Notes under the pieces: generated by a model | Seen by the model: only the letters and a program-made list of their open reading frames with translations | What the model was told of the DNA's origin: nothing | The model's database searches: none | Position numbers and translations under genes: made by a program | Shown: positions 4,800 to 55,323 of the stretch, one piece after another | Layout of the letters: every line of letters starts with the position of its first letter | How positions within the stretch are numbered: the first letter of the stretch is position 1 | Assembly: GCA_029204225.1 (NCBI GenBank) | Contig: CM055096.1 | Span: 34,425,143-34,489,142, forward strand | Source: Diphasiastrum complanatum | Lineage: Eukaryota > Streptophyta > Lycopodiopsida > Lycopodiales > Lycopodiaceae | Direction: 5' to 3' | Length of the DNA: 64,000 nt

Positions 4800-5226
4800 T
4801 ATTAGGAATTAATGTTTATTTAATACCCCTTAATGATAGTTTGGCCATGCCTGCGTGTTATTATAGGGGTCATACTATTTATAGTAAATTTGTATTTTAT
4901 TGCTTATGCATGTACATGGGCGCACTACTACTAGATTAGGATCTGTTTTACTACTTAGAAACTCATCTTGGATCTTCGCCCAATATAGGTAGTAATTTTA
5001 GGAAATAGCTTTTGTTCTTTTGCTATTTGCTTTAGGCTTTTAGCTTTTCACATAGATTAGAGAAACTATACATATAAGTTGGCGCCCCACCACAATTCAT
5101 TCCAATGTTTTAGAGCTTTGCTGAATTCTTCTATAATCTGAATTCTCTTTAATCTCTATGCTTGGTTTGTGTGAGTGCTAGTAGGACTGGTAACTCCATT
5201 TAGAATTTGCATGACAAATTCTAACA
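4800..5226 (+). repeat. Copia-I 5' LTR
   Basis: 427 bp, ending in CTAACA. It starts TATTAGGAATT where the 3' LTR has TGTTAGGAATT, one substitution. The primer site TGGTATCAGAGC (5227-5238), complementary to the 3' end of initiator tRNA-Met, follows with no gap. Confidence 0.95.
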
Positions 5227-5752
5227 TGGTATCAGAGCAGGCTTTTTGGTGTGAGAGAGAGCTTGCTTTTGCAGGCGTGCAATCAGATTGGAGGAGCTGC
5301 GCTGGACTGCTGTTGGAAGTAGTCTAGATCATTGACTGCGGAATATTTGTATCTGCTGACTCCATCGGTGCTTATTGGCTGTTTACAGACCTGAATCAGA
5401 AATTTACAGATCTAATTCTACAATTGCAGCTCACAGGTGTTTGATGACTGATCGCTGCTTGACTGTTTGCTGGAACTGCACATTGTTCGCTGTCTCTGAC
5501 CTGATCGCTGTCTACTGGCACTGTTTCAGAACTGTTCATTGTCTACTGCTCTGTAGAACCTGTTTACTGCTGTCAGAACTGCAGACCTACTCTTCGCAGT
5601 GTGCTGTCTATTGAAATTTCTGATCACTAAAAACAGACACATTGTTGAAGAAAAACAGGCTGATTGCTTTTGGAACAGATCTACAGGGCCTAATTTTCTG
5701 AAAAGATACTGATTGCTGAAAACTCAGGCTATAAAAATCAGGTTGCTAAAAA

Positions 5753-6631
5753 TTGTTACAGATCAGAACAATGGCAGGATTCAACGATGATGTATTGTTG
5801 GAGTCTAGCAAGCTAGATGGAACGAATTACAGTATATGGAAGTTCAAGATGCAAAATATTCTCCAAGATCGAGAATATTGGCAGATTGTCACAGGCATCG
5901 ATATACGTCCTAACACTGACAGGGAGTTACGGGAGTATCAGAGGCGTAGAAGAAAAGCTCATCATATCATCAACTTGTCAGTTAGAGATATGATGATACC
6001 TCACGTCAGAGATGTTGCTGGACCCAAGGAGGCTTTGGATATACTAAAGAACTTCTATGAGACGGTGAATCAATCACGAATATTGTTCTTGACTAATAAG
6101 CTACACACATTGAAGATGAGTACGGGTGAATCAGCAACAAACTATTTTACTCGGGTGAAAGGTTTGAGAGGGCAACTTATTGCGGTTGGAGAAAGTGTTC
6201 AAGATTCAGTCTTAGTATCCATTGTGCTTAATAGTCTACCTTTGGCTTATCAGAACTTTGTAATGATGTTATCGTTACGGGAAACGAGGACTTCTTTCAA
6301 TGAGCTGAATGCCATATTACTATAGAAAGAAATGAGACGACAAAATATTGTCAACAGGGACGATTTCAAGGAACAGGCATTCCTGGCGAAGAAGCAAGAG
6401 CAAAGTTCCAAGAAGGGTGGCAAAGGGAAGAAGAAGAAGAAGAAGAAGCAGCTAAATACGGAGGAGATTCAATCAAATCGATCAGATGATGGAAAGAAAG
6501 GAGTTCGAAAAGGCAACTGCTTTGTTTGTGGAAAATCAGGGCATTATGCAAAGGAGTGTTGGCACAACAAGTTCAAAAGAAGCAGGATGGGAATTTTGTT
6601 GAAGAAGAAGAAGCATCTAATGCAAAATTAA
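5753..6631 (+). pseudogene. Copia-I gag (UBN2 type) with CCHC zinc knuckle
   Basis: Nucleocapsid precursor of the element. The first part (5753-6325) has the plant copia gag signature LDGTNYSIWKFKM near residue 20 and a helical UBN2-like body. A TAG at 6323-6325 interrupts it. Reading resumes at 6332 in the same frame with a lysine-rich stretch, then one CCHC knuckle (CFVCGKSGHYAKEC, about 6518-6560) that would bind RNA. Assembly into virus-like particles is known for the family; here the stop makes a full protein unlikely. Confidence 0.9.
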
Positions 6632-6699
6632 GTGTTTTGGATCTTGAAGACTATGAATTGTTTTTGGCATCGACATCTTCTGGTGCTGGCTTCTCAAAG

Positions 6700-7535
6700 G
6701 AATAAGACTATTGGTTTATTGATTCAGGAGCTTCAAAGCATATGACACCTAGGCGGGAGTGGCTATCTAATTTCAAAAATTAGATGATGGGTCAAATGTG
6801 AAGTTGGGAGACAACTACACATATGATATAAAAGGAGTTGGAAAAATACAAGTTCAACTACCTTCAAGGAAGATTGGTGAAATAAAGGACTTGCTTTATG
6901 TACCAGGAATTAAGAAAAACTTACTCTCAGTATCAGCTATTGCTAAGCAACACATGGTGGTGCAGTTTGATGATGAGCGGCTCATCAAGAGGAAGGATAA
7001 TGAAGTAGTAGCTGACAACATACTTGCAGGGCGGTTGTACAAACTTCAGGCTCAAGTGGTGGATCATCATGCAAGTGTTGCGGATATTGGATCAGTGAGT
7101 AAGCTATGGCACGAAAGGTTTGGACATCTGAATTATAAAAGTCTACAAGTCTTGAGGAAATACAACATGGTTACAGGTTTACCTCAAGTTGTTTCTGATC
7201 ACAAGGTTTGTGAAGGCTGTGTCTTAAGCAAGCATCATATGAAGAAATTTTCGCCTAGTACATTCAGGGCGAGAAATGTTCTAGAACTCGTTCATACAAA
7301 TTTGTGTGGTCCTATGAGAACTCAGTCCTATGGGGGAGCAAGTTACTTCATGGTGTTTGTGGATAACTATTCTAGGAAGACATGGATCTATCTTCTCAAG
7401 AATAAGGGTGAGCATTCAAGTATTTCACGTGGTTTAAGACATAGGCGGAGAAAGAAACAGATAGACAAATTAAAATACTACGCTCAGACAAAGGGGGAGA
7501 ATTTCTACGAAATTTCAGGTGTTTTGCAATGATCA
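6700..7535 (+). pseudogene. Copia-I protease remnant and integrase N-terminal half
   Basis: An aspartic protease active-site motif DSGASKHMT lies at about 6720-6750, in a different frame from the block that follows. 6798-7420 gives the gag-pre-integrase region ([16 protein letters not shown]) and the integrase zinc-binding HHCC module (H-ERFGHLNY, then CEGCVLSKHH). It continues into the first catalytic aspartate region, where the usual D in LVHTDLCGP is replaced by N (LVHTNLCGP). After about 7420 the frame is lost. Frameshifts plus the D-to-N change predict no active integrase. Confidence 0.88.
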
Positions 7536-7554
7536 TGGTATAAAGAGACAATTT

Positions 7555-7812
7555 TCAAACACGAACACGCCTCAACAAAATGGAGTTGCAGAAAGAAAGA
7601 ACCGGTCTATAGTGGAAACTGCGAGGAGTATGCTCAAGAGCAAAAATCTTCCAAATATGTTTTGAGGTGAAGCAATTAAGACGGCGGTTTATCTTTTGAG
7701 TCAAAGTCCTACAAAGGTTGTAGAGAATCGGACTCCAGAGGAAGCTTACACGGGTCGGAAACCAGATGTAAGTCATTTGAGAGTGTTTGGTAGTATTGCT
7801 TATGCTCACATG
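7555..7812 (+). pseudogene. Copia-I integrase fragment with catalytic glutamate region
   Basis: Plus-strand reading of the QQNGVAERKNR catalytic-glutamate block, followed by SPTKVVENRTPEEAYTGRKP and LRVFGSIAYAHM. In intact copia elements this continues into the integrase C-terminus; here it stops at 7812, where the inverted segment begins. One stop codon (near 7664) and a frameshift relative to the upstream block are present. Confidence 0.88.
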
Positions 7813-9992
7813 ATTGTCACACTAAAGTACCGTAGGTGAATCTTGTACCATATGTAGTAGAATCCTTCGTAACCATATTGCTTCACTTGCTACACTTGTA
7901 GGAGCTCGATATTCTGCCTCTGTAGATGATAATGCAATAGTATGTTGTTTCTTTGAACTCCCAGAGATAGCACCATAACCAGGACTAAAAACATAACCTG
8001 TAGTAGATCTTCGGTCTTCCGCATCTCTAGCCCAATCAACATCTACATAGCCCTGTAACTTCAAAATTTCATAGTTGCACTGCGTTTCAGAGAACACGAA
8101 TCTGAAAAGAAAAAACATTTAATTTTTTTTTGTGGGCAATATGGGTATGCAACAATGCCTGTTAGATTCTATCAAGGTTAAAAGTTTTCTATGGAAATGT
8201 GTTCCATTTCTTGTCAAATCACTGCATTGATAATGAGCAGTTATTATGCCAAGACCACCCTCCCCCCTTCTATCCTCCTGCGTTTCTGGAAAAAAAAAAT
8301 TCCTTTTTTTCTACGTTTCTATCCCGGAATGAGAAACGGGGAAACGTGTTTGCCCAAAAACGCGTTTCTGTGCAACTATGCTTCAAATCATCCTGTCTCC
8401 CATAAAGAATACCAAATCTCAAAGTACCCTGGATATATATGAGTATCCGCTTAGCAGCTCTCTAATGAATTTGCTTAGGCTTAGCCATAAACTGACTAAC
8501 CATACTCATAGCATAAGCAATATCTGGTCTCGTAGTAGTTCAATAGATTAAGCTGCCAACAAGCTTTTTGTATAATGTCTCATCTACATTCTGATCCTCC
8601 TCAACTTTAATAAGCTTACATCCACTATCATATGGTGTAGAAATAGGCTTGCACTCTAACATATTGAACTTTTCAAAGTTCATGAGCATACTTAGATTGA
8701 GAAATAAATAGCCCATGTGCTACTCTCCATACCTCAATCCCAAGAAAATATTGTAGTGAACCAAGATCTCTTATGTCAAACTCCGATGAGAGTTCTTTTT
8801 CTTGATACCCTGAATACTATGATCTGATCTTGTATTAACAAGGTCATCCACGTACATCACTACAATTACAATATGACCATCCCCGATCAAAACATAAAGT
8901 GTATGCTCCGAACTACTCCTCTGAAAGCCAAGCTCCTCAAAGTATGTGTCAATCCTCGTGTACCATGCCCTAGGTGCCTACTTAAGTCCATATAGTGCCT
9001 TGTCCAACTTGCAAACTTTGTCTTCATGTCCTTTTACTAGGTATCCCTCTGGCTGCTCCACGTAGACTTCCTCCTCTAGAAATCCATTCAAGAATGCACT
9101 CTTCACATCCAGTTGTTGAATATCCCATCCAAACTGAGCTGCCAATAATAAAACCGTCCTCACAGTAGTAGACTTAGCAACTGGTGCAAAAGTTTCTTCA
9201 TAGTCAATCCCTTTCTATTGAGCATAACCTTTTGCCACCAATCTTGCCTTATGTTTATCTATAGAACCCTCTAATTTGTACTTAGTTCTATAGACCCACT
9301 TGCATCCAATGGCCTTTTTACCTGTAGGTAACCGAACAAGTCTCCAAGTCTCGTTCTTAATAATTGAGTCGTACTCCTCATCCATAGCTTTCCTCCAAAT
9401 ATCCTCTTTTAGCTTGTTTGAAAGTAGATGGATCCTTGGTTTCCAATACTGTGGCCATATATGCAAAATGTACATCCCCATCTTTGTGATGATCTTCGTG
9501 ATGATCCTCCTGTTGATCCTCTTGTTGATCCTGATGTTCATGTTGCTTTTCAAGTCTAGCCGATCTCCTAGTCTCATGTGTACTGGACTCTCCCTGTTCC
9601 ATAATGGCACCATCCTTGAGTACCATCAGGCAATCTTCTAGCTTCTGATGTAGGATACTTCCTGCCTAGTGAAGTAGGAGGTGAATAAGTATCCCATATA
9701 CTTGATATCTCCTTCCTCTTTTCTTTCTCAACAAAGGTCACTCTAGGTATTTGGATTGGCATAGGCGATACATGTGTTGATTCGGGTCCCTGGGCCCCTG
9801 TAATAACTCGTCACACAATATAGGGATTCCTCCATCTTGATTCCTATCATAAGGTATCTCTGTATCTTTATGAGTTGCCTCCTCACCAAAGATTACATCT
9901 CTGTTTATGATGACTTTCTTACCCTCCAAGTCATACAACATGTATCCCTTCTCTTGACTATCGTATCCAAGGAATAAACGCTTGGTTGCCTA
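7801..9992 (-). pseudogene. Copia-I inverted pol segment: integrase C-terminus, RT, RNase H
   Basis: Read on the minus strand from 9990 leftward. TKRLFLGYDSQEKGYMLYD and the linker are followed by the RT start (WRKAMDEEYDSIIKNETW, CKWVYRTKYK, ARLVAKGYAQ at 9215-9430). Next come [10 protein letters not shown] and the KALYGLK block (8978-9120), then YVDD (about 8860), GSLIY and RPDIAYAMS (about 8520-8560), and finally RNase H (DVDWARD, SSTEAEYRAP) and CDNHVSI (to 7801). This is precisely the part missing from the plus-strand reading of the same element, so it is an internal inversion rather than a second element. Several stops are present. The reading is interrupted by the MITE at 8070-8380. 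Confidence 0.88.
8070..8380. mobile_element. Non-autonomous hAT-like MITE, copy 1
   Basis: A 311-bp insertion with terminal inverted repeats CATAGTTGCAC / GTGCAACTATG and many subterminal GAAACG/CGTTTC motifs. It splits the RNase H reading: the host sequence on both sides joins as DDLK-LQGYVDVDWA on the minus strand. An imperfect duplication of about 8 bp (CTTCAAAA left, CTTCAAAT right) flanks it, separated from the left terminus by two or three T. No transposase. The 8-bp duplication points to the hAT superfamily; the terminal sequence is shared with the element at 24850-25559. Confidence 0.8.
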
Positions 9993-9994
9993 AA

Positions 9995-10165
9995 TTGGCG
10001 AAAAATCCAATTTTTCACAGCAGGACAAAGCACATTGAAGTAAAACACTTCATCAGAGAGAAGATTCAGAGGGGTGAAGTGGAGCTTATCTATTGTCCTA
10101 CGGAAGAGCAAGTTGCAGATATCTTTACCAAAGGACTTGGCAAAGAAAATTTTTCAGAAGTTTAG
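9995..10165 (+). pseudogene. Copia-I RNase H 3' end
   Basis: Plus-strand continuation [19 protein letters not shown], then YCPTEEQVADIFTKGL, the canonical end of copia RNase H. A frameshift follows near 10145, before the final FRELLG stretch. The polypurine tract TCAAGGGGGAG lies at 10201-10211, directly before the 3' LTR. Confidence 0.92.
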
Positions 10166-10211
10166 AGAACTTCTAGGAGTAATAGATAACAAAGTAAACA
10201 TCAAGGGGGAG

Positions 10212-10611
10212 TGTTAGGAATTAATGTTTATTTAATACCCCTTAATGATAGTTTGGCCATGCCTATGTGCTATTATAGGGGCCATATAGTAAATTCGTTT
10301 TTTATTGCTTATGCATGTAGGTGGGTGCACTACTACTAGATTAGGATCTGTTTTACTACTTAGAAACTCATCTTGGGTCTTTGCCCAATATAGGTAGTAA
10401 TTTTAGCAATTAGATTTTGTTCTTTTGTTATTTGCTTTAGGCTTTTAGCATTTCACATAGATTAGATAAACTATATATGTACGCTAGCGCCTCACAAGAG
10501 CTTTGCTCAACTCTCCTATAATCCGAATTCTCGATAATCTCTATGCTTGGTTTGTGTGAGTGCTAGTAAAACTAGTAACGTCATATAGAATTTGTTTGAC
10601 AAATTCTAACA
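10212..10611 (+). repeat. Copia-I 3' LTR
   Basis: 400 bp, TGTTAGGAATT to CTAACA, clearly homologous to 4800-5226 with scattered substitutions and small indels that account for the length difference. It is flanked on the right by the ACATC target duplication. Confidence 0.95.
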
Positions 10612-29500: not shown

Positions 29501-31183
29501 TCTACAGCCCATGCGACAAGCAGCACTTGCGTATGAAGTATTACCACCCATCACCTCGAACGCATGACACTTACCCACCTTGACGTACACGCCACAGACA
29601 TTCACCTCATCAGACAGCACCGCCCTCAGCTACCTTAGCTACCATCATGGCTTTCTTCATATCTTTACTCCAAGGTATCACTGGATGATTCCCGTTATAT
29701 TCAGCCAAGCAGAGTCACAAGACATCATTGTTGGCCAGCCACAAAGCTTTGTTATCGATTTTGATTTTACTGCTACACTGCTACATTCAGTTCTGAATTT
29801 GGTTCGATTTATATTATGATCCCACGTTATGAAACATACTTGAAATCTTCTCATTTAGTCTTATGTACCCTCAGGACTCAAAGACATTTGAATATCTTTT
29901 TTTCTTTCTTTCTTGCTATGGATCAACAACCTAAATCTTCTTCTTTTAATTTGATATTGAGGTTTCCACCGTTTGTTTTTCAAAAAAATTCAAAATGAGT
30001 ACAATTATCATTTTGCAATACACAATGTGAACTTTGAAAAAAAATTTGAATCAATTCAAATCGATTTGTAACTGTGCAAGCAAATAATAGGACAAGAGGA
30101 ATGAGTCAAACGTGCTAGCAAGACAGGCTCCCAATAGGAAGCCAGGTATGCAAGTTGCCTTTACACATAATAGAACCTTCATATGTGAGGAAGAAGATTG
30201 GACAAGGGTTGAACTTTTAATGCTCTACTTTCCAACAACACAAAGGGCCTGCAGCTGAATTTAATAGGCGACACCTCATGCATACCCACAAAGCATGTGC
30301 AACATGTGACCCCAAGATCTTTAGACTCTTGAGGGGTTTCCACACCCTCCCACTAATTGATTATTCACTTGTTGGAACACATCTCTCTTTATCAAGGAAC
30401 CAAAGCTTTGGTTTTTGCTAACTTTCTTGGTTCTCCATGCATTTGAATAATGTTTGCAATTGAAATGTTACTGTCATCTACCGTAGTTATGATGCTTGAT
30501 AGGATAATGTACAGATTTCAACATGGTATCAGAGCGTGATCAGATCCTTGAATAAGCACCTCATTCTTGAAAGTGGAATAACTACTTTAAATACAAATCT
30601 TTTCATCTTGTAGTTGGTACTAATGGAGAGCTATCAATATGAGGAGGACAGCCATAGCAAACAAAGAGGATACTAAGCAATTTTCCAAAAGCTATGGAGA
30701 GCAGCTTGTGGAGAATTAGAGCACACTTCTTCTGGGAGATCCTATGAAGGTGCCGACTGTATCTTGGACAAAAGGCCTAGGACAGCCATAGTGTGTGAAA
30801 TTCAAAGTTCAAAATTAAGGGTACTCATCAAGTGGCATAATTGTTAGAAATAAATGACTATGCTGAAGTTAATCCATAGGTTACTTTGACCCAAAAGGTC
30901 GAGATTTGTGTAACCATGGGTATTTAGTTATTTAGGCCATCTTAAGTTTGTCTTAAGTTCAGTTGGACCCAATTTTGGTCATGTACTGACTCGTGGGTTC
31001 TTAGGGGTCTAATTTTGTTTAGGGGCCCTATCTTGACTTTTGGGGGTGCCCTACATTTAGTAAGTGGTTAGCCTTAGGGTTTGGTGGGAATTGGCCACAT
31101 CCAAGTAGAGTACTTAGATGCTCATTGTGTATTCCATTTTGGACAGTTTGGCTAAGCATTGCTCTCCATTGCTCTTGCTGTTG

Positions 31184-31249
<66 letters not shown>

Positions 31250-34200
31250 TGGGCGCCCAGCCTCTTCTCTCTTGTTTCTTGTGGAGAATGATTGATAACT
31301 AGATCTTGGTGACTTGACTCTTGCTTTCCTACATGGTATCAGAGCTACCGGATCCGCAGCAAGCTTGTATGTTGACGCCCTACCAGAAGAGGAGCTTCTC
31401 TGCTTTTTGTTGTGAAATTTCAGCATCCTACTAATCTTTCCAAGTGGAGTTTGGATCAGCTTTTTTGTCTCTTTTCAGGTTGAAGGAGGGCGCCCATCGG
31501 AGATCTTGGAGGAGTAATTTGTGGCACCCAAAAATCAGAATCTCAAATCTGATTTTTATGCAACCAATTTTCAACAAGTTTTGTTCGGAGGAGGGAGCCC
31601 AAAAATCTGCTACTGATTTTTGGTTGTGGTGTCTCCTTATCTTGCTGTTTTTGTTTTCAGGTTTGCATTTGTGTAGGAGGGCGCCCAAAATTCAGTAAAC
31701 CCTATTCAAGGTTAGGTCAACTTGTGGCTAGAGATTTGCAGATTCTCAACAAGCAGTAGGGCACTTTCAATAGCCTGTGTTGATCACACTATTTGGCTTC
31801 CTAATTGGGCTTCGGTGTAGGCTTCAATCAAAGCTAACCTAATTTTCAAGAAGCTGGTTTTTTTGTGTAGAAAGACAGCCATCTTTCCATTATCTTTTGG
31901 GCACTTTGGATGCAGATTGAAAGACATCTAGTGCTCCTACTTTCAGCTCTTTGTTTGCTGCAAATTTTTGAGTAGATTTGGTTGTGGAAAGGCTCTCTTT
32001 CCTATCTACTACAAGCTGAAATTCTGTTGGAGTTAATGGCTAAAGAATCGGAAGCTACGGTTCTTTGTTTAGTGAAGATTGGCTGGAGGGCACAAATTAC
32101 TCCTTGTGGAGTTACATGATGAAGAAGCTTCTCATAACGAAAGGGCTGTGGGATTTGGTCAATGGTGATGAGGAAAGGCCTCTGTCTTTGGCACCTCCTA
32201 CACCTCGTGGATCATCATCAACATCATCTTCTCCATCTTCGCAAGAACAAAAGAAGTGGGATAGAAGGGATGCACAATCACATTCTATGGTTGCTCTTGC
32301 TGTGAAAAGATCTGTCTTACCTCATATTAGGTCTTGTAAGACATCTACAAGTGCATGGGATACACTTTATACTATGTATAGAGTCAAAAATCCAGCAAGA
32401 GTGGTGTATCTCAGAAATCAACTTTCTTTGTTGAAGATGCAAGAAGGGGATCAAGTGACCAATCACTTGACGAAGATCAAGGATCTTTGTGAGGAGCTTC
32501 TAAATATTGATGAGATAATTGAGGATGCTCAATTTGTTTCCATTACTCTCAACTCATTACCTTCATCTTATATTCCATTTGTTTCATCTTTGAGTATCTC
32601 TCTTAGGGGACAGCAGCTCTTCTTTGATGTACTTGTTGGGCTGCTTCTTCAAGAGGAGCAAACGAGGCAAAATTTTGCAGGTGACACTCAACAAGATCAA
32701 GCTTGCTTCACGAAAGGCAAGGGCAAAGGCAAGTCAAAAGGAAAGGGGAAGTCTCCTTCCAAGGATGAGCAAAAGCCCATTGGAGGTCAAGATGTCAACA
32801 CTCAAAAGAAGAAAGGGAAGTGCCTGTAGGAAATAGAAGCCTAAGGATCCAAAATCTTAACTATTCAATCACACAAGCATTCTCAAAAGAAAGAGAGAGA
32901 TGCCTAGAAACCCTCTTGTAGAAACTCGTGGACAGCCAAGGAGAAAAGTTAGTATTGCTTACAAAAGTGTCATATACAAATGGGATGCACACATATATAT
33001 AGTCCAAGATGACTATCTAACTTCATGACTATTGGCTATCCAACTACTTGATTATTGGCTTTCCAACTACTTGACTATTGACTATCCAACTTTCTATAGG
33101 TTACATAGAAAGAATAAGGTACCTCCAATATGTCAAGTTGGGGTACTTAATGTCACAATTAGGCCTAGTGGACCCATGAGTCCCTACCAAGTTAATTTCA
33201 TACTAACTTAGCTAACTCTAAGTTTAGTAAGCCTAATATAATAAATGACCATGGTTACACAACTCTCGACCTTTTGGGTCAAAGTAACGTATGGTAATGT
33301 AAGCGATTCCATTTACATTCCAACACCCTCCTTAAATGGAAATGTGTAACATAACATGAAGTAACTTCTCGAAAGAGAAAAATGCAACTTGCTGTCCGAA
33401 CTTCATGTCGCCAAATAAACTTCGCTCCGAAGTAGTCGAAATCTCATCCCCAATCATGTCCAACATATAAAAGGAATAGAATGCGTAATAATGAAGCATC
33501 AAGTCGAAGGGTGATGATTTGCATGCTCCATCCGAAGTAGGGAACCAACATAAACTCGGCAATAAGTCGAAACATGGACTTGTAATCCATCATAGGCTCC
33601 CACATTATTCGAAAATATTTCTTATCATAAGGACAATAAAAAAGAGTACCAAACTCTTTTGGCATCACATCCTCCCGAACCTTACCATCAATGACTTGCT
33701 CACATAGAACAGGCAATGTACAAACATCATGATGAAGAGTAAGTGTAGAACCAAAAAAATAAGCAAGAGGTGCTGATTTTAAAAAGGCATGTGCCTTCCT
33801 TTCGTAGTAAGACATATCTTCGTTGTCCTACAAAGTCTCCAATAGCCGACAAGGAATTGTTATGGGCTGTTCAACACTTTGCTGACCAAAGTGTTCCCAA
33901 CATGGACCATGTTGTCCATAATCTTCCGCAGGCTGTTCCTGAAGCATAATGGGCTGTAAATGACCAAAGGAAGATGGGAACCTGCTGTCCAACGTCTTCA
34001 TCATAAAAATTTGGCAAACTATCAAGAGATGCATAAACAATGGCGTCATCAAAGCTGTCCCTCGAAGAGGCATGGGATGACATAGAAGATTCTTCAAATA
34101 ATGAAAAATTCTCTCCAAACAAATGCTCACTCTTAACACTTTGAACAAAAGTACTAATTGGCACATGTTGACTCCCTCCTCGATTAGTACAAAAAGGTTC

Positions 34201-37200
34201 CAAAGAGTGTTTGAATTTTTAAACCTTTGCTAAACCATCAAATTGAAAAGGTTTCGCATGAAACTTTTCACTAATGCATCCATCATATGCATCAACTTGC
34301 GGTGACTTGAAAAAAGAAGATTGTTTCAACATCTGCTCAATGTATCGTTGTTGAGAGATGAAGATTCTACTGCCATGCTTTTGGTAAAGAAGGTCACTTT
34401 CTAATGTAATAGGTAATGTCTAAGTTTTGCAATGACGGAATGTGCTTGTGCATCTCGTCGATCCCACTTCTTTTGCTCATCTGAAGACACTTCCGTAGAT
34501 GATGAAGTAGTTGTTCTAGATGGTGTAATAGGTGCCAAGGTAGGCAGCCTCTCTTCGTCACCATTAACTACTTCCCACAAACCTTTTGCAATAAGAAGGT
34601 TCTTTATCATGTACCACCACAAGGAATAGTTTGTGCCATCCAGCCTATCTTCATTAAATAAAGAACCAATAGACTCTGATTCTTTAGCCATAACAGAAAA
34701 ATCAGCTTGTAGTAGATAGGAAATAGACTTTCCAAGACAAAATCTACTCAAAGGGCAGCAACCTCAAAGTTGAAATTATGAGCACAATAGATTGCAATAC
34801 TCCACATGCAATTTGCTCAACAAGTAATGAAATAGATGGTTGCTTTCTGCACAAAAAACAGAATGCTCACAAATAGGTAGACTTCGAATGAAGCCAAAAC
34901 CAAAACCAGAAATTTGTGGCTAAAAAGAGTGCACACTATGTGCATATAGAGCTGATGGTAGCATCCTACTCCAAGCTCACCAAGAGGAAAATTTCAGCAA
35001 GAAACGTGTCCAAAACACATGTATCTTCATTTACGAAGTAAATCTGAAATTTTCAGCATGTAATTGATCACATGCAATTGGTTTGAGCATGGGCGCCCTA
35101 CTCCTAGCTCTCAAATAGGTGAAGGTGCCCTGCAATTTCCTGCAAAAAAGCTATAAGAAGATGAACAGATTCTTCTCTTGCAAAAATCAGCAGCTTGATG
35201 ATTTTCTGCAACCAAAAGGGGAAGAAGATAGCTTCCTATTGGGCGCCCCTCCTACAAGCAATATGATCACCTAAAGGCTCTGATACCATGCAGGAAATAG
35301 AAGCCTAAGGATCCAGAATCTTAACTATTCAATCACACAAAGCATTCTCAAAAGAAAGAGAGAGATGGCTAGAAACCCTCTTGTAGAAACTCGTGGACAT
35401 CCAAGGAGAAAAGTTAGTATTGCTTACAAAAGTGTCATATACAAATGGGATGCACACATATATATAGTCCAAGATGACTATCTAACTTCATAACTATTGG
35501 CTATCCAACTACTTGACTATTGGCTTTCCAACTACTTGACTATTGACTATCCAACTTTCTGTAAGTTCCATAGAAAGAATAAGGTACCTCCAATATGTCA
35601 AGTTGGGATACTTAATGTCACAATTAGGCCTAGTGGACCCATGAGTCCCTACCAAGTTAATTTTATACTAACTTAGCTAACTCTAAGTTTAGTAGGCCTA
35701 ATATAATAAATGACCATGGTTACACAACTCTCGACCTTTTGGGTCAAAGTAACCTATGGTAATGTAAGCAATTCCATTTACATTCCAACAGTGCCATTAT
35801 TGCAAGAAGTATGGGCACTTCATCAAGGATTGTAAGAAGAAGCTTGCGAAAGAAGAGAGTAAAGGAATTGATACTAGTGCTTCACTTGCTACTTTGGAGC
35901 AAGAGCTTGAAGCTAGTGGTGATCTCTTCAACAAGACTATGCTTTTGTGTCTAATATTGCTTCTACTAGTACTTCTACATCTATGAGGAATTCATGTTCT
36001 GTTTTGCAAGTTGCTGATTTTCAGCCCATTGAATGGGTGATTGATAGTGGTGCTACTCGTCATATGACTTCTCACAAACTAAATTAGTGAAAGTGCAAAA
36101 TGGAAGTAAGGTACAATGTGTGGATGATGCATCTTATTCTATTCATGGAATTGGAATTGTAGCCATCATTCTACCTAATGGTGAAGAAAAGTACATTAAG
36201 AATGTGCTTTATGTTCCGGGAATCAAGAAGAATCTTCTTTCGGTTTCAACTATGTTGAAGCAAGGACTAGTTTTTGAGTTCAAAGAAGATAAGTGTCTTG
36301 TCAAGGATCCTAAAAGATCACTCTTGATTATTGTTTCGGGAACAATGCATGCTAACTTATTCATTATGGATACCTATGACCGACGAATTCCCTCTACATG
36401 TCTTGTTGCTTCTACATCACAATCATTGGAGTTGGCTGAATTGTTGCTTCTACATAAGCAATCGTAGTCCTACTAAAGCATTGAAAGTATTAACTCCTTG
36501 TGACGTTTGGTATGGGAAGAAGCCCAGAATCTCTCACTTTCGCATTTTTGGTTGTACGGCTTATGCTTTTGTTCCAGATAAACTTCGTACAAAGCTTGAG
36601 GATAAAGGAGTTAAATGCATTTTTGTTGGCTATAGTAGTGAAAGCAAAGGCTATAGGCTGTTCAATTTGAGCACTAACAAGATTATTGTTAGTCGTGATG
36701 TGCATTTTGATGAAAAGAATTCATTAGATGTGGCCCCAACTCATATCTTGAAGGGGGACAGCCCACATAGTGTGAATGTTGAAGTTTTTCCAGATTTGGT
36801 ACCATCTTCTATTGCTGGAGATAAGGGGCAGCAATCAACCAGTTTCGGACTGCCCAACACCTCATCAAGTTTAGAGCCTAATGTTCATCAAGAACCGCCC
36901 ATTGTTGCTCATAATCAGCCTGCAAGAACTGTTAGACAGGACCAATTTTGAAAAATCTTGGACAGCCAAGTGCGGTGTCGGAAGATCTTGGACAGCAAAT
37001 TGTAAGAAGAGACATGGCTGTTGGACAGGCCAAAACAGTCCTACGGTGGCTGTTGTCGACTCTGCGGGACAGCAAAGGAAGTTCATTTTATGATGGAAAG
37101 ACACGTGCCTCTACAAAATCAGTGGACTATGCTGATTTTTCAGATTTTGCTCTTACATCTCATGGAGATATTGTGGAAGAACCCGATTTTTATGAGTAGG

Positions 37201-40200
37201 CCAAGGGAGTAAAATGTTGGGAGGATGCGATGCAAGATGAGTATGACTCACTTATGAAAAACCAGATTTGGGTTCTTGTTGATCTTCCTCATGGGAAGAA
37301 GGCAATCGGTTCTAAATGGGTATACAAAATCAAGTATAAGGCAGATGGTACCATTGAAAGGTACAAGGCGATTGATGCCGTAATACTTGATCTTGGTATG
37401 GTTTTTGAAACCTCAGATTTAGGCCTATTGCATTTTTATCTTGGTCTTGAATTTGTACAAGAAGGGGCTGGAATTTTCATCTCTCAAGAACGCTACATTG
37501 GGCAGATTTTGAAGCGGTTCAAGATGGAAGATTGCAAGCCGGTTGCTACACCTATTGAGACAGGCCTGAAATTAAGTAGTCAAGGTGATGGTGAACCATT
37601 TGATACTACTTTATATTGTCAAGCTATTGGCTATCTCATTTACCTATGTAATTCAAGACCGGATATTTCTTATAGTGTCTCACTCATGAGTCAATTCATG
37701 CATGCCTCGATGACATCACATTGGAAAGCATTGAAGAGGATCTTTTGATATCTTCAAAGAACAAGAAGTCATGGACTGGTTTTTCCTGCTTGTGATGATG
37801 CATGTTTGGTTGGTTTTAGTGACTCGGATTGGGGTGAAGATCAAGACACTAGACGCTCTATAAGTGGACATTGCTTTTTCTATGGAAATTCTACAATTTC
37901 GTGGTCAAGTAAAAAGCAGCCCACTGTTGCTACTTCTTCTAGTGAGGCAAAATATAAAGCGATATTTTCAGCCACAACGGAGTGTTTATGGCTGAGAAGA
38001 CTACTTGTTGACATGAAGTTTGGCGAGCCCTCAGCCACTCTTATCTTGAGTGATAGTCAAAGTGCTACTACCAATGCACGGAATCCTGTTTTCCATGCGA
38101 GGACGAAGCACATCGAGATCCATTATCACTTTGTTCGGGAGAGACTTCATGATGGCGCCATTTTACTTGAATATTGTCCTACGAAGGATAATATTGCGGA
38201 CCTCTTCACTAAGGCGTTGCCTAGAGTCAGATTTGAAGCTTTATGCAAAGCTTTAAATTTGATACCACGTGTTGGTTTTGTTACATAGTGAAGATTTCAG
38301 TTTTTGCATTGTCATTTAAGGAGGGTGTTAGAAATAAATGACTATGCTGAAGTTAATCCATAGGTTACTTTAACCCAAAAGGTCGAGATCTTAAGTTTGT
38401 CTTAAGTTCAGTTGGACCCAATTTTGGTCATGTACTGACTCGTGGGTCCTTAGGGGTCTAATATTGTTTAAGACTTAGATGCTCATTGTGTATTCCATTT
38501 TGGACAGTTTGGCTAAGCATTGCTCTCCATTGCTCTTGTTGTTGTTTTCTCTCTCTCTCTCTCTCTCTCTCTTAGAGTTGGGCGCCCAGCCTCTTCTCTC
38601 TTGTTTCTTGTGGAGATTGATTGATAACTAGATCTTGGTGACTTGACTCTTGCTTTCCTACATGTTGGAATATCAATCCACACTCTAGAGAGAACTATCA
38701 AACAGGGCGGATAGCTCAGTGGTAGAGCATCCCATCCGGTATGAGGGAGGTCCAGGGTTTGAATCCTAGTCTATCCATCCATACTATGATTTATGGATTT
38801 CTAACATGGTATCAGAGCCAAGTTAGACCTAACAGTTCATGGTGTCAAGTTGTGGGGCAGGTGACAGCTAGGACCCCAACCAAGTGTGGCTTGAGGGGGG
38901 GTGTTGGAATATCAATCCACACTCTAGAGAGAACTATCAAACAGGGCGGATAGCTCAGTGGTAGAGCATCCCATTCGGTATGAGGGAGGTCCTGGGTTTG
39001 AATTCTAGTCTGTCCATCCATATTATGATTTATGGATTTCTAACAATAACACCCTAGTTGGGTTCCTAACCCTGGTTTACCTTCTTTCACTTTTATGAAT
39101 TTAACGATGTCTAATCTTTCTAAAAGCTTGCCTAATGAAGCTAGCTAGCTAGATGGCACTAACTATAGCGTTTGAAATTTCAACATGGAGAACATTTTTA
39201 AAGAAAGAGAATGTTGGGATAGTGACAAATAGAGAACCTGTTCCTACTTCAAAACCTAATCTCAAGGACTATATCAAGAGGGGCAAGAGAGCCTACCATT
39301 AATCTCTCAGTGAAAGATAGCATCATTCTTCACATTAAAGAGACAAGAGGACTCAATCAAGCTTGGGGAATTCTTAAATCTAAGTTTGATACAACCAACA
39401 TAGCAAAAATTTTTACTTGAAGAACAAGTGGAGAGTGTTGCTGAAAAGGATTGGGTGCCATTGGTTTTAAATAGCTTGTGGTATGCTTTTTAGGTTATGT
39501 ATTTATGATTTTTGCAAGGTATAGAATCCCCACTTTCACACACATTTGTATGGTCTTTTGAAACAAGAGGAAACAAGGAGCTTTGAGGGTGAATCTCACA
39601 TAGAGGGAGGATTACCAAGAAATACTTCTAAGAAGAAGTGGCAAATTTAAAGCTTTGGTGTAGAATCCAACAAGGAAGAGAATTAAGACACACAAGTCAA
39701 ATAGAGGTGGTGAGAACATTGCAAAAAAGCTTGTTGAGTTATGAAGGACAAATGATATTACGAGGCAACTTACTACCTCCACATACACCTCCATATAGTG
39801 TACTTGAGAAGAACCGAACAATAGTTGAGTGTGCGCGCAACATGCTCAAGGGAAAGGGGTTGCCAAACTCTTTCAGGGCCGAAGCACTTTATACAACTGT
39901 TTTTCTTTTGAATTGAAGTCCTCCAACAAAAGTTATGGAAGGAAAGACACCAAAGGAAGCATTTGTGGCATCGAGCCCAAAGTGGGAGCTTTGAGGTGTT
40001 TGTTTGTAACTTGTACGACATACACTCATATCCCCAAGGACGATAGGAAGAAGTTGGATGTGAAATATCCAAGTGTAAATACAATGAAGAGGAGAAGGCC
40101 TATAGACCATATAATCTTACAAATAACAGGATCATAAGTGAGGACGTGATCTTTCGTGAAGAAGTATACAATTAGGAGATGGGCACTAGCCCAGTTATGA

Positions 40201-50649: not shown

Positions 50650-51627
50650 TGTTGGGGTGCTCTCGAATAGATTAGATGCGGAAGAAGAGACACGACTCCA
50701 ACATAGAGAAATTTACAAGATCTTTATCAAAACTACAATATCAATATTGACTTAGATCGAATGGAGGAATGTCTTGGTAGGTGTCAGAGACGACCATGAA
50801 GGGAGCGAATAATTAGGCGTCTAAAACAACCATGCTTCCTTCAAGATTAGACATTCCGAATTGAGTGAGTGTCAATAGAGAAAGAAAACTATCAAAGAGC
50901 ATTCGTAGTGCAATACACATAAGAAGAATAGAGTCTGAATTAATGGGTTGTGAGTACAACGATCAAATCACAATCTTGTGCCCAAGAATGGTTCACAATA
51001 ATGGTGCACTATAATGTGTAGTGATCTTACTTGACTAGTTACAAATTAAATAATTATCTCTATCTTTTGAATGGCTTTCACTCTTTCTAAGATCTCTGAT
51101 CTTATGGAATCAGGTAATTGAGACACAATGGAGTTCACGCAAGAACTCTAACTCTTTTCCACTTGTATGTATATTCATCACATATTGTCTCATCATCGTT
51201 TACGTGATTTGCCATTATGTATATATGTACATGGAGCAGTTACATGACTACGTGGGCAACGAGCATGAAATAGTGCAGTTACTGAAAAAGTGAACTGTGA
51301 CGTGGTATGCGTTTGGACAGGGCAGTGTGGATGACGTGGATCTCGAACTCGAAGACTTTGAGTTCATAGGTGATCGAAGAGGATGTAGTCGAACTCAGTG
51401 TGGATGACGTGGATCTCGAACTCGAAGTGTTCGTCGTCGATCCCGCTTCTTCTCCAGTTGATTAAAGCACAAACGTTTCACTTCAGAGAGTAAAACTGCA
51501 AAGCTGTCATAGAGAAGAGAGAGTGTGTGTGTATTTACATAATGTATTGTTGCTTAGGACGAACTTGAATGATTTGTGTTATGATGACACAAATTTTGGT
51601 GAGTTGGAGTAATGCTTAATTCCAACA
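50650..51627 (-). repeat. Copia-A 3' LTR
   Basis: 978 bp; ends TGTTGGGG and TTCCAACA on the plus strand. Contains an internal near-duplicate of GTGTGGATGACGTGGATCTC (51327 and 51400 area). Confidence 0.92.
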
Positions 51628-51948
51628 CCCCCCTTTAAGCTTAACTCCTAGGATCCTAAATGAAATTGAGCAAGCTACATAATGTAACCTGCTTTTCTCT
51701 TGACAGAGGCTTAGTCAAGATATCAGCCAACATACTGGTCGTAGGATAGTAACTTAATTCGACATTCTTATTCTAAACTTTCTCTCTAAGAAAATGAAAT
51801 TGGACTTCAATATGTTTAGTTCTAGAGTGACTTCGTGGATTCAGAGATAGAGCAATGCGGCTCTGATTGTCGCAATAGAGTATACTCGGACTTATTTAAA
51901 CGATCATAAGATCCTGAAGCAATCTTTTGAGCCAGATGATTTTCTTCA

Positions 51949-53100
51949 CTACAGAGGTAGCTGTGACATATTATGATTATGTGGAGGACAAAGAAATGAA
52001 TTGTTCCATGAAATGGGTCCTCCTGCTAGAAAGCAAAGATAGCCATAAGTGGATTTTCTTGTGTCCACATTACCAGCCCAATCAGAGTCAAAATAAGTAA
52101 GTAATGTCAAAGTTGCATCCTCTGTATTTCCATTATAACACAAAGCATAATGCTTAGTGGCTTGAATGTATCTTAGTACTCTGAGTAGAGCCTTCTAGTG
52201 AGGTAGGCCAGGATTGGGGGACATAAACTGTGACAATGTGCTGACCATAAATGCTAGATCATGTCTGGTGCAGACCATGGCTTACATTATTAATCCTACT
52301 ACTATCGACTGATAGGGGTATTTGCATATCTCTTTCTTCTCTGCATCAGTTTTCGAACACATATCCTTTGACAATTTGAATCCTGGGTCCATGGGCAAGT
52401 CTATCGACCTGCAGTTTTCCATGCCATACTTGTAGAGTACACTGGTTAGATACCTTTCTTGATTTAGTATGATACTTTTCCTTGCTTTGTCTCTGTTTAT
52501 CTCAATTCTCAGAAGTAGTTCATAGGGCCTGAATTAGTCATTTTGAATTTCTTCGACACAAGGTTCTTCGTCTCATGAAGTAGTTGATTCGAATTGCTGA
52601 TGATCAGTGAGTCAACATATAGAGCTATTATGACATAGAGCCTCTATGTTTGAGATAAACATTAGAGTCAGCAGAGTTCGGGATGAAGTCATGCTGCAAC
52701 AAGAATCGATTGATTCTATCAAATCAAGCCCTTGGAGCTTGCTTTAGCCCGTAGAGAGCTTTATGTAGCTTACATACTTTGTGTTCTTGGCCTTGAAGGA
52801 TGCAACCTTCAGGTTGACATAAGTTTGTTCGTATCCTTTGATGACTAGACGAGCTTTCCCTCTGGTTGTCGAACCATCTGGATTGAGCTTCAGCTTGAAG
52901 ATCCACTTGGTGTCGATGATCTTTGCATCTACAGGAGCTTCGACAAGATGCCAGGTCTTGTTCTTCATCAATGAATTATACTCAGCATGCATGGCAGAAC
53001 GCCAGGTCTGCATTTGAGCTTGACAATGCTTTTGTTATTGAAGTGGGTTCATCATAGTTAATGAATTCCTGAGGGACAAAACGATCAGGTTCTTGTCAAT
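51949..53100 (-). pseudogene. Copia-A reverse transcriptase and RNase H remnants
   Basis: The RT start is at 53013-52800 (WRSAMHAEYNSLMKNKTWHL, TKWIFKLKLNPDGST, ARLVIKGYEQTY). A deletion follows, leading to QPEGCILQGQEHKVCKLHKALYGLKQAPRA near 52724-52810. Broken readings then run to RPD-like CTRHDLAFMVSTLSQFM (about 52240) and RNase H (TYFDSDWAGNVDTRKSTYGYL, ending at 51949). The first catalytic aspartate region and YVDD are lost or unreadable. Several stops sit where Q codons are expected. Confidence 0.85.
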
Positions 53101-54139
53101 GTCTTGCAGATCTTCGAACAATAGTCGGTTGCTGAGATGATAATTTTCCTCGCTGTGTGACAGGAATATCTTCGATGTCCGTCGGAACAGTCGTAGGTCA
53201 AGGCCTGTCGATGGTGATGGGAGTCGTTGGGACGAACTCTTGCATTGGCTGCTTCTGCTTGAAGTTGAAAAATTTATCTTAAGGAAGACAACATCTCGAC
53301 CAACTGAGATTCGGCTCGATTCGACATCAAAAATTCTATATGCCTTGTGTGATGTCGAGTATCCAATGAAGGTACTCGTGCAGCTAACACGGTCAAGCTT
53401 CTTTCTTAAGTCAGAGGGGATGTGTACATAGCAAAGACAGCCAAATACTTGGAGGTGTCGTAGACTCAGTTAGTAGCCATAGAAGGCTTCAAAGAGAGTT
53501 ATTGAGTCGATTACTTTGGTACTCAAATAGTTCTATAGATAGAAAGCTGTTGAAATAGCTTCAGCCCAAAAAAAATTTGGTGAGCTAAGCATTAGACATC
53601 ATCAATCGTGTTGCATTTAGCAATGTTTAGTTCTTCCTTTCGGCTACTCCATTCTGTTGTAGCGTGTAGCTGGTGGTGAACTGATGATGAATGCCAAATG
53701 ATGCCAGATAGTCAAACATTTAATTTGACATAAACTCTCCACCGCTGTCAATACGAAGTGTTTTGAGTCATTGACCAGTCTGTGTCTCAACAAACTGTTT
53801 GAAGTCTTTGAAACAGTTAAATTCCTCTGACTTGTTCTTGATGAACATAATGCTGGTGAATCTAGAATAATTATCAATAAAAGTGATGAAATATAGTGCA
53901 AAACTCATAGAAGGAATATTCCTAGGCCCGCACAAATCACTATGTATTAATTCTAGAATGGACTTAGCTCTAGTGGCTTGTCCCTTTGGGAATCTTGATC
54001 TAGGCTATTTGCCTAGTAGGCACATCTCACAGACATGTCGTATGTCAGTGGAGTCACCATTAAAGTTTAAGTCCTTGATCGTAGAATTATGATGCATATA
54101 AAAGATTGATCTCATGTTTAGATGTCCTAATCTTTGATG
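53101..54139 (-). pseudogene. Copia-A integrase
   Basis: Collinear but stop-ridden integrase: ending of the zinc module (CEMCLLGK), LELIHSDLCGP (first catalytic D), LRIDSGGEFMS (second catalytic D), QQNGVAERKN (catalytic E), VFGCLCYVHIP and the C-terminal FIGYSTSHKAYRIFD. All three acidic residues are visible. Stops occur at Q, R or W positions throughout. Confidence 0.87.
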
Positions 54140-54751
54140 TCATAATTGGGCATTTGAAGTATTCACATTTGTGAAAAGTGCATATTTGTGACCCAGAATG
54201 TACAAAGTACCTTCTATGTTTGCAGAGAAGATTTTTTTATCATGCTTGTCTCCCAGAATGGTACACTGCTTTGAATCGAACGAGGCTTTGCAGCCCTGAT
54301 CAATAAACTTGTTGACTGACAATAAATTTTTGGTCAGTTTGGGTACGTATAGTACATCCTTGAGCAAGGTCAGCTTACCAATAGGAAGATAGAGACGTAT
54401 AGATCCTTTGCCTCCAATCTGTAGTGCACTTGAGTCACCCAAGTAGACATGCTTCAAATCTGTTGGTGTGAGGTCTTCGAATAAGGACTTACATGTTGTC
54501 ATGGGATGAGAAGCACCAGAATCGAGATACCAATCCATTGTATCTCTGATGGGTCAATCTTGTATCATTAGCAGAGTTGGTTCATCTTGAGAGGTTCTGA
54601 CAGAATCAAATCCTCTGTCCTGTTGCATCTTCTTCTTGGCTTCGTTATGCTTGAGAACTCGACAATTCTTGACGTCGTGGTTGGTTCTTTTGTAATACTT
54701 GCAGAAGAGTCTGGTCTTAGGCGAACTGTTGCTTATTCGAATAGAGAGCAA
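54140..54751 (-). pseudogene. Copia-A zinc knuckle and protease
   Basis: 54751-54554 gives a knuckle-like CKYYKRTNHDVKNC in which the second cysteine of CCHC is Y. 54538-54140 gives the protease start WYLDSGASHPMTTCKSLF, with the catalytic DSGA intact, and a VLYVPKLTKNLLSVNKF block leading into integrase. Confidence 0.87.
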
Positions 54752-54966
54752 CTGTCTTCGTATTCGACATGGATAAACTTTTCTTTCTTACTTCTTTCTA
54801 CAATAGGTTTGTTGTCACCTTTTGGAGAGATATGTCAGGAGTATTATTGAGTAGCAATACTAAATTGCCGTAAGAGGGAGGAAGGCGAGACATGTTAGCA
54901 TCTTCGTCTGATATTGGCAAACCTACTATAGCTACTTAACTAATTGAGTAGTTGTTTGAAATTCGC

Positions 54967-55239
54967 AGGTGATCGAAGATGATGTAGTCGAACTCAGTGT
55001 GGATGACGTGGATCTCAAACTCGAAGTGTTCATCGTTGACCCTACTTCTGCTCCAGTTGATTATTGCACAGACGTTCCACTTCAGAGAGTAAGACTACAA
55101 AGTTGTCGTAGAGAAGAGAGAGTATGTGTATTTACATAATGTGCTGGTGCTCAGGACGAACTCGAATGATTCGTGTTCGGATGACATGAATTTTGGTGAT
55201 TCGAATTTTAGTGAGTTGGAGTGATGCTTAATTCCAACA
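54967..55239 (-). repeat. Copia-A 5' LTR remnant
   Basis: Matches the right-hand third of the 3' LTR (about 51350-51627), ending TTCCAACA beside the CCACT duplication. The inner break at about 54967 joins directly to gag sequence. Confidence 0.88.
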
Positions 55240-55323
55240 CCACTCACAACACATTCAAAAGCTAAAGAGAGTGCATTAACTGTTGGTTCGTTAAATGGAA
55301 ATTATCAGCTCTGATACCAACTT

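Follow-up and report, generated by a model that had tools for sequence, protein, structure and literature searches.

A tRNA-bearing TRIM of Diphasiastrum complanatum and the Copia element with which it shares single insertions

How terminal-repeat retrotransposons in miniature (TRIMs), above all those with a promoter for RNA polymerase III (Pol III), find the proteins that copy them is an open issue, and it is raised in a concrete form by a locus of Diphasiastrum complanatum. The window, a stretch of 64,000 nucleotides (contig CM055096.1, positions 34,425,143 to 34,489,142), contains at 38663..39045 a TRIM whose two long terminal repeats (LTRs) each carry a tRNA-like sequence. The 3' end of a Copia retrotransposon of ~7.8 kb (30842..38662) abuts this TRIM with 0 bases between them; both elements and their parts lie on the plus strand. 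The Copia junction at the left of the TRIM, together with the recurrence of related junctions in the genome, is the most informative feature of the locus and was absent from the preliminary description of this DNA. The probable explanation is that the TRIM belongs to a Helenus-type family that depends on Copia elements, and chiefly on the family of this partner, for copying in trans, that the RNAs of the two elements are packaged together, and that reverse transcriptase (RT) switches templates at the primer site they share.

The coordinates and the LTR alignment agree with the preliminary description of a 383-bp TRIM with two 144-bp LTRs and a primer site. The 5' LTR (tLTR; 38663..38806, TGTTGG...CTAACA) and the 3' LTR (38902..39045) are 144 nt each and differ by 5 substitutions and 0 indels. 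The internal region (38807-38901, 95 nt) begins directly after the 5' LTR with a primer binding site (PBS; 38807..38824), which is complementary at 17 of 18 nt to the plant initiator tRNA-Met, a match that points to a plant host. It ends with the polypurine tract (PPT) GAGGGGGGG at 38893..38901; the tract had been placed correctly, and its length is 9 nt rather than the 11 nt claimed. The longest open reading frame (ORF) overlapping the element is 70 amino acids, and no transposition genes are carried. Within each LTR the tRNA-like part occupies 73 nt at offset 43-115 (38705..38777 and 38944..39016). Its equal position in both LTRs, also part of the preliminary description, is confirmed by ARAGORN, which calls tRNA-Thr(GGT) in both, with C, not U, preceding the anticodon in the 5' copy, and by Rfam tRNA scores of 35.9 and 42.5 bits for the two LTRs (gathering score 29). 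The pairable acceptor stem and D arm seen earlier were found again: the acceptor stem pairs at 7/7 positions in the 3' copy and 6/7 in the 5' copy, the D stem at 4/4 in both, and the T stem of the 3' copy at 5/5 with G-U accepted as pairing. A chance match was ruled out by shuffling, with ARAGORN matches in 0 of 5000 dinucleotide-shuffled LTRs and 0 of 20 shuffled windows. A short interspersed nuclear element (SINE) was considered as the source of the tRNA-like part; such an origin is not established because just 29 nt of LTR remain after the tRNA-like part and no flanking repeat exceeds 5 nt.

The family was followed through the genome sequence (1.745 Gb, 23 contigs of 42-102 Mb, the window lying on a 77.9-Mb contig), with 40 candidates scored in every search. 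The 383-bp element as query gave at least 49 matches (40 scored of 1204 first-look candidates). Thirty loci were reduced to 21 distinct insertions including that of the window, 9 being dropped as copies of or overlapping other loci, and these insertions supplied a set of 47 LTRs from which matches not exceeding about 130 nt were excluded. The possibility that the tRNA-like part is missing from most members can be set aside, since it is present in 47/47 LTRs, with small deletions in a few. The tRNA-free internal region, used as a second query, returned 22 stretches absent from the first list; 20 were read, 3 of them were dropped as copies or overlaps, and 17 were distinct. BLAST found the tRNA-like LTR in 20/20 of these stretches and ARAGORN made a call in 16/20, in addition to 29/29 loci of the first set, so the family must mislead tRNA annotation in this genome. 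Apart from the window copy, 15 of 20 distinct insertions have an exact 5-bp target site duplication (TSD), a feature absent from the preliminary description, 2 match at 4 of 5 positions, and 3 are out of register. At locus L005 the TSD becomes exact when the left end is extended to include a piece of Copia, L015 is chimeric, and L030 matches only with a one-base shift. Tandem arrays with three LTRs occur in 7/21 distinct insertions. Four near-identical pairs of loci (L002/L003, L014/L017, L025/L026, L006/L007; 99.0-99.6% over 3.4 kb) are haplotypes or duplications; in each of the first three, one member lies on a chromosome-size contig and the other on a small one, and both members of the last lie on C9. 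In the TRIM of L097 (reversed strand, 9003-9071), 69 nt of other sequence replace the middle of the internal region. Searches of viral and genome contig sets by sequence patterns found 0 places, in collections from which host records may be excluded.

The arrangement in the window can be described precisely. The 5' LTR of the partner Copia (cLTR; 30842..31333) is followed from 31334 by a PBS whose first 12 nt are those of the TRIM, and its 3' LTR (38326..38662) shows 6 substitutions in 336 aligned sites relative to the 5' LTR. This copy holds a nested element, and its RT domain is partial. According to blastn, the window TRIM and the partner Copia have only the primer-site region in common. 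The bases flanking the pair, ATAAT on the left (30837..30841) and ATAAC on the right (39046..39050), form a TSD of the combined unit: the match is 0/5 for the Copia alone, 2/5 for the TRIM alone and 4/5 for the pair, with a 1.9% chance of reaching at least 4. The divergence of the two LTR pairs is not different (Copia 6/336, TRIM 5/144, p 0.32). The unit consists of four LTRs end to end with no shared internal LTR and is therefore not classed as a template-switching complex.

The same kind of junction recurs. A 180-nt query across the Copia/TRIM junction was spanned at five other places among the 40 scored of 2600 candidates. L097 has the identical exact junction at a different site with a different TRIM variant, within the TSD GTTAT/GTTAT; it has lost part of the 5' Copia LTR and of the leader, and the LTR differences are 7/257 for the Copia and 4/144 for the TRIM. 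L005 was read as a deleted end-to-end form, also with the TSD GTTAT/GTTAT. L098 and L100 have 3 extra or 6 missing bases at the junction and have lost the right end of the TRIM; the partner copy in L100 retains gag and a 1112-amino-acid pol ORF with integrase and RT domains. Among 38 distinct TRIM loci (21+17), all collected with Copia-free queries, 6 are chimeric with the LTR of the partner (L001, L005, L015, L057, L059 and L061). Two more (L013, L074) lie within partner internal sequence, and L013, which has its own TSD, is by its structure an ordinary nested insertion.

In a second class of insertion the parts of the two elements are intermixed. In the layouts below, tINT and cINT stand for the internal regions of the TRIM and the partner Copia. 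The tLTR/cINT junction of L101 as query was spanned at 40/40 scored places, out of 1222 candidates. Seventeen of the 40 were read upstream (14 plus L101, L102 and L106), a count that may include duplicates, and the outer ends were read in a minority of the 40. Six of the 17 have the order cLTR-tINT-tLTR-cINT, three tLTR-tINT-tLTR-cINT, one (L113) is odd, and in the other seven the tLTR is the first LTR within the stretch read. Such variety suggests more than one event. The odd locus (C6:14185230-14185920) has an inverted TRIM piece head to head with the tLTR-Copia junction; in the inverted part two TRIM LTRs are directly joined with about 12 nt missing, which resembles end-joined or autointegrated complementary DNA (cDNA).

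Four of these heterodimers have exact 5/5 TSDs, each with outer LTRs of one kind. The layout cLTR-tINT-tLTR-cINT-cLTR is found at C4:71314189-71319984 (L106+L122, TSD GACTG/GACTG) and at C2:58587241-58593466 (L124+L110+L123, TSD ATGCC/ATGCC), with outer cLTR differences of 8/438 and 11/385. The reverse arrangement is found on C4 (L108+L121) as tLTR-cINT-cLTR-tINT-tLTR with TSD TATCT/TATCT, and on C6 (L101) as tLTR-cINT-cLTR-tINT-tLTR-tINT-tLTR-tINT-tLTR with TSD TAAGT/TAAGT; here the outer tLTR differences are 8/141 and 2/130. In the C2 heterodimer and in L108+L121 the 5' LTR has an altered second base, and a 10-nt deletion lies near the end of the last LTR of L101. L101 was read throughout, and the other three were read at their ends and junctions, not in the Copia middle. 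A single exact TSD thus encloses three LTRs and two internal regions, with extra TRIM units in L101, and this is the organization by which template-switching complexes are recognized. A joined query of the 3' end of the Copia internal region and the tLTR matched in both halves at 0/40 scored places, consistent with outer LTRs of one kind, and its longest partial runs (1-105 and 85-180) are those that similar LTR starts and purine tracts predict. On the same ground, as none of the 40 scored places on the 3' side matched both halves, the idea of a complete Copia flanked by tRNA-bearing LTRs was rejected.

The family, whose members have A and B boxes, a PBS, a PPT and TSDs, and the single insertions holding both TRIM and Copia can be read directly from the genome; the route by which the mixed insertions arose is reconstructed from their structure. 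Copia RNA and TRIM RNA would be packaged in one particle. The minus strand, on reaching the end of its template at the primer site, could pair with the other RNA at the primer site that both have in common, and would then copy the U5-R of this second RNA, followed by its U3 and internal part. Plus-strand transfer would finally place the LTR of the first element on the free end. From switching at the primer site one would thus expect the two layouts, each with matching outer LTRs, that are observed. Four-LTR units such as that of the window may have formed when finished cDNAs were joined end to end before integration. Mixed insertions whose TSDs are intact resemble fossil traces of a replication complex that contained two RNAs, so that a helper can be proposed from the genome alone by a search that is applicable to Cassandra and other TRIMs.

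How the TRIM RNA is made is a separate matter, for which the tRNA-like part provides candidate signals. The A box TAGCTCAGTGG lies at 38712..38722 and again at 38951-38961, and the B box GGTTTGAATCC, one base off the family's commonest GGTTCGAATCC, at 38756..38766 and 38995-39005. Correctly spaced pairs of the two boxes start only at window positions 38712 and 38951 and were absent from all 30 shuffled windows (one strand). The triplet CAA (38699..38701 and 38938-38940), the plant Pol III start motif, occupies positions -6 to -4 relative to the tRNA-like part; in Arabidopsis, transcription of tRNA genes usually starts at CAA no more than 10 nt upstream (PMC11700998). As background, 21% of random window positions have CAA within 10 nt upstream. 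Among the 47 LTRs the commonest exact boxes are A box TAGCTCAGTGG (34/47) and B box GGTTCGAATCC (29/47), CAA stands at -6 in 44/47, and the anticodon is GGT in 39/47. The 20 named cloverleaf pairs, from which a mismatch in the anticodon stem is excluded, form in 97.3% of cells. Because base 33 is C in 47/47 LTRs, a working tRNA gene is ruled out. The retained boxes and CAA favour an internal Pol III promoter, and it is plausible that the tRNA-like part serves to produce genomic RNA, not a working tRNA. A small hairpin (38778..38797, z -2.15) before TTTCT at the LTR 3' end may be a weak terminator. Two other lines of argument were dropped: lack of a T4 terminator as evidence for Pol III, since this absence is not significant, and compensatory changes as proof of structure, since covariation is weak relative to shuffles.

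A more far-reaching version of the explanation is rather doubtful. It holds that Pol III makes a TRIM RNA lacking the matching terminal repeats that a normal LTR-element RNA has, so that first-strand transfer would often fail. Reverse transcription would then be completed by a switch, guided by the primer site, onto Copia RNA in the same particle. Mixed cDNAs would then be a regular product, and cLTR-tINT-tLTR-cINT-cLTR would be an amplifying compound retrotransposon with a Pol III promoter in its leader.

Several observations weigh against copying by the partner Copia from a Pol III transcript. The window copy has no T4 terminator, as is true of 49.5% of shuffles. The cloverleaf is not the best fold of the tRNA-like strand (z 0.21 and -0.87), and the observed covariation values are reached by 20 to 67 of 500 shuffles. 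The A and B boxes are conserved no better than the remaining LTR, with a mean majority of 0.973 and 0.959, respectively, compared to 0.991 for LTR positions 1-42, 0.969 for the remaining tRNA-like part and 0.976 for positions 116-144. Among the five junction recurrences, L099 is a contrast case, in which Copia and TRIM each have their own exact TSD, 8 bp apart, and so are two separate insertions. The helper role is, from one chimeric locus with LTRs of two kinds, not exclusive to the partner Copia: L065/L066 (C831, C8:59552050-59552950), 1 of the 38 TRIM loci, has the order LTR-tINT-tLTR with exact TSD GCTAG/GCTAG, and its Copia LTR is about 70% like that of another element of the window, Copia A. 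Second-strand transfer from another Copia via the same primer site would fit L066. The depth of 40 scored candidates per search also bears on the recurrence counts, and the form cLTR-tINT-tLTR-cINT-cLTR could reflect one event, amplified later.

The last point leads to the alternative that survives best, namely that a single ancestral heterodimer, spreading with its cLTR ends as any Copia-like element would, gave rise to most of the chimeras. The form in question has a complete LTR-PBS-PPT-LTR anatomy and is represented by two TSD-bearing examples, which gives this alternative some credit. However, the reverse layout, with outer TRIM LTRs, has exact TSDs twice, the layouts vary among the 17 junction loci read, and the length of the internal region is unequal in L102 and L106. 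A single ancestor is a tenable account of most chimeras, though not the expected one.

Somewhat less credible is the view that the tRNA-like part is a fossil and that the TRIM is transcribed by Pol II, as its helper is. Boxes without extra conservation and a window copy without a T4 terminator are what this view would lead one to expect. It has more difficulty with the persistence of the commonest A box, B box and CAA at the frequencies given above, with named stem pairs that are still nearly all formed, and with the fact that every family member examined has the tRNA-like part. On balance it is less likely than not.

For the window alone, the abutment could have arisen by chance, as a nested insertion from which slippage later removed one of the 5-bp duplications. 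By inspection, the junctions before such a loss would have had direct repeats of 3-4 nt placed 5 nt apart, the LTR pairs show no age difference, and at L099 two insertions that arose independently lie 8 bp from each other and have TSDs that overlap. The identical exact junction at the independent site L097, with a perfect shared TSD, argues against slippage, as does the TSD match obtained for the pair and not for either element alone; this origin is improbable. Weakest of all is post-insertion recombination of neighbouring or distant TRIM and Copia copies via short shared sequences, which recalls the 20 to 2 ratio of recombinant to template-switch complexes in a Triticeae sample (PMC1950507) and could account for L098, L100, L103 and L105, with their lost ends or absent matching TSDs, but which is very unlikely given the exact 5-bp TSDs at the four heterodimers, L097, L005 and L066, since matching TSDs would not be expected from recombination of separate insertions, and given that the two window elements share only the primer-site region. 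Copying in trans with template switching remains the preferred explanation.

The surroundings of the unit contain further retrotransposon sequences. Nested in the partner Copia is an LTR element at 32825-35790, which its primer site at 35288 assigns to the minus strand, with LTRs that differ at 14/501 positions and TSD GTGCC. The stretches 30524-30841 and 39046-39700 appear to continue one older decayed Copia, with an upstream primer site at 30524 and gag remnants downstream, where the flank matches another Copia at the start of its gag (5768-6082). This older element seems to be the one that received the Copia+TRIM unit. A control query built with the Copia at 30524, a weak test of specificity, matched both halves at 0/40 places, the window copy being the only match of that half among those listed. 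Copia A (4802-10611) has LTRs that are 85% identical, and its LTR end and primer site equal those of the TRIM at 20/20 nt. Finally, a minus-strand LTR pair at 51368-55241 has a purine tract and LTR start that match the TRIM at 20/22 nt, and this element is a possible further helper.

Comparison with known systems separates what is familiar from what is new. A tRNA in the LTRs of a TRIM had been thought undescribed, which does not hold: the same architecture has been published as Helenus (Kojima 2024, PMC10886601), TRIMs with tRNA-derived LTR sequence that occur in fungi and animals and, among plants, in Selaginella moellendorffii alone. The window TRIM resembles Helenus in being short (mostly <1 kb in Helenus) and free of transposition genes, in having a PBS and a PPT, in LTRs that each hold a tRNA-like sequence with both boxes, here family-wide, in the 5-bp TSD of plant and fungal Helenus, and in a tRNA that is mostly non-functional there and non-working here; fungal Helenus families also have a Copia-type PBS. 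By architecture, it is of the Helenus kind. Its LTR and internal region measure 144 and 95 nt, compared to 120 and 85 nt in Helenus-1_SMo, the sole plant family listed (PMC10886601), a comparison by description and not by sequence. A literature search at title and abstract level found no further report of TRIMs with tRNA-bearing LTRs. Other plant TRIMs (Gao 2016, PMC4717578) are similar in size class and tandem arrays; they differ in that no tRNA in LTRs is reported, the word 'tRNA' having 0 occurrences in the main text. Cassandra shares the tandem arrays and the presence of a Pol III gene sequence within the LTRs, but this sequence is 5S rRNA, not tRNA. In the window 5S rRNA was not matched, and only tRNA matches reach the Rfam gathering score.

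For Cassandra, no helper is indicated (PMC10886601). The helpers of Helenus were inferred from the PBS and, once, from internal similarity (PMC10886601), whereas here both elements occur in single insertions. The closest precedent is the template-switching complex of Sabot and Schulman (2007, PMC1950507), described as having three LTRs, two internal regions, a shared exact TSD and outer LTRs of one kind, and for which switching between RNAs after co-packaging was proposed. There the switch is proposed to occur at R between similar elements, and the cases are few (2 in about 7 Mb of Triticeae sequence; 2/4704 elements in rice and maize). In D. complanatum, by contrast, the two kinds of LTR show no relation, the primer site is what the templates have in common at the proposed switch, a TRIM is one of the partners, and the tLTR/Copia junction was spanned at every place scored. 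The kind of element is thus known and the Copia partner is what is new, within a limited literature search on TRIM-Copia heterodimers as such; its recurrent fusion with the TRIM in single insertions points to this Copia as the helper that copies it.

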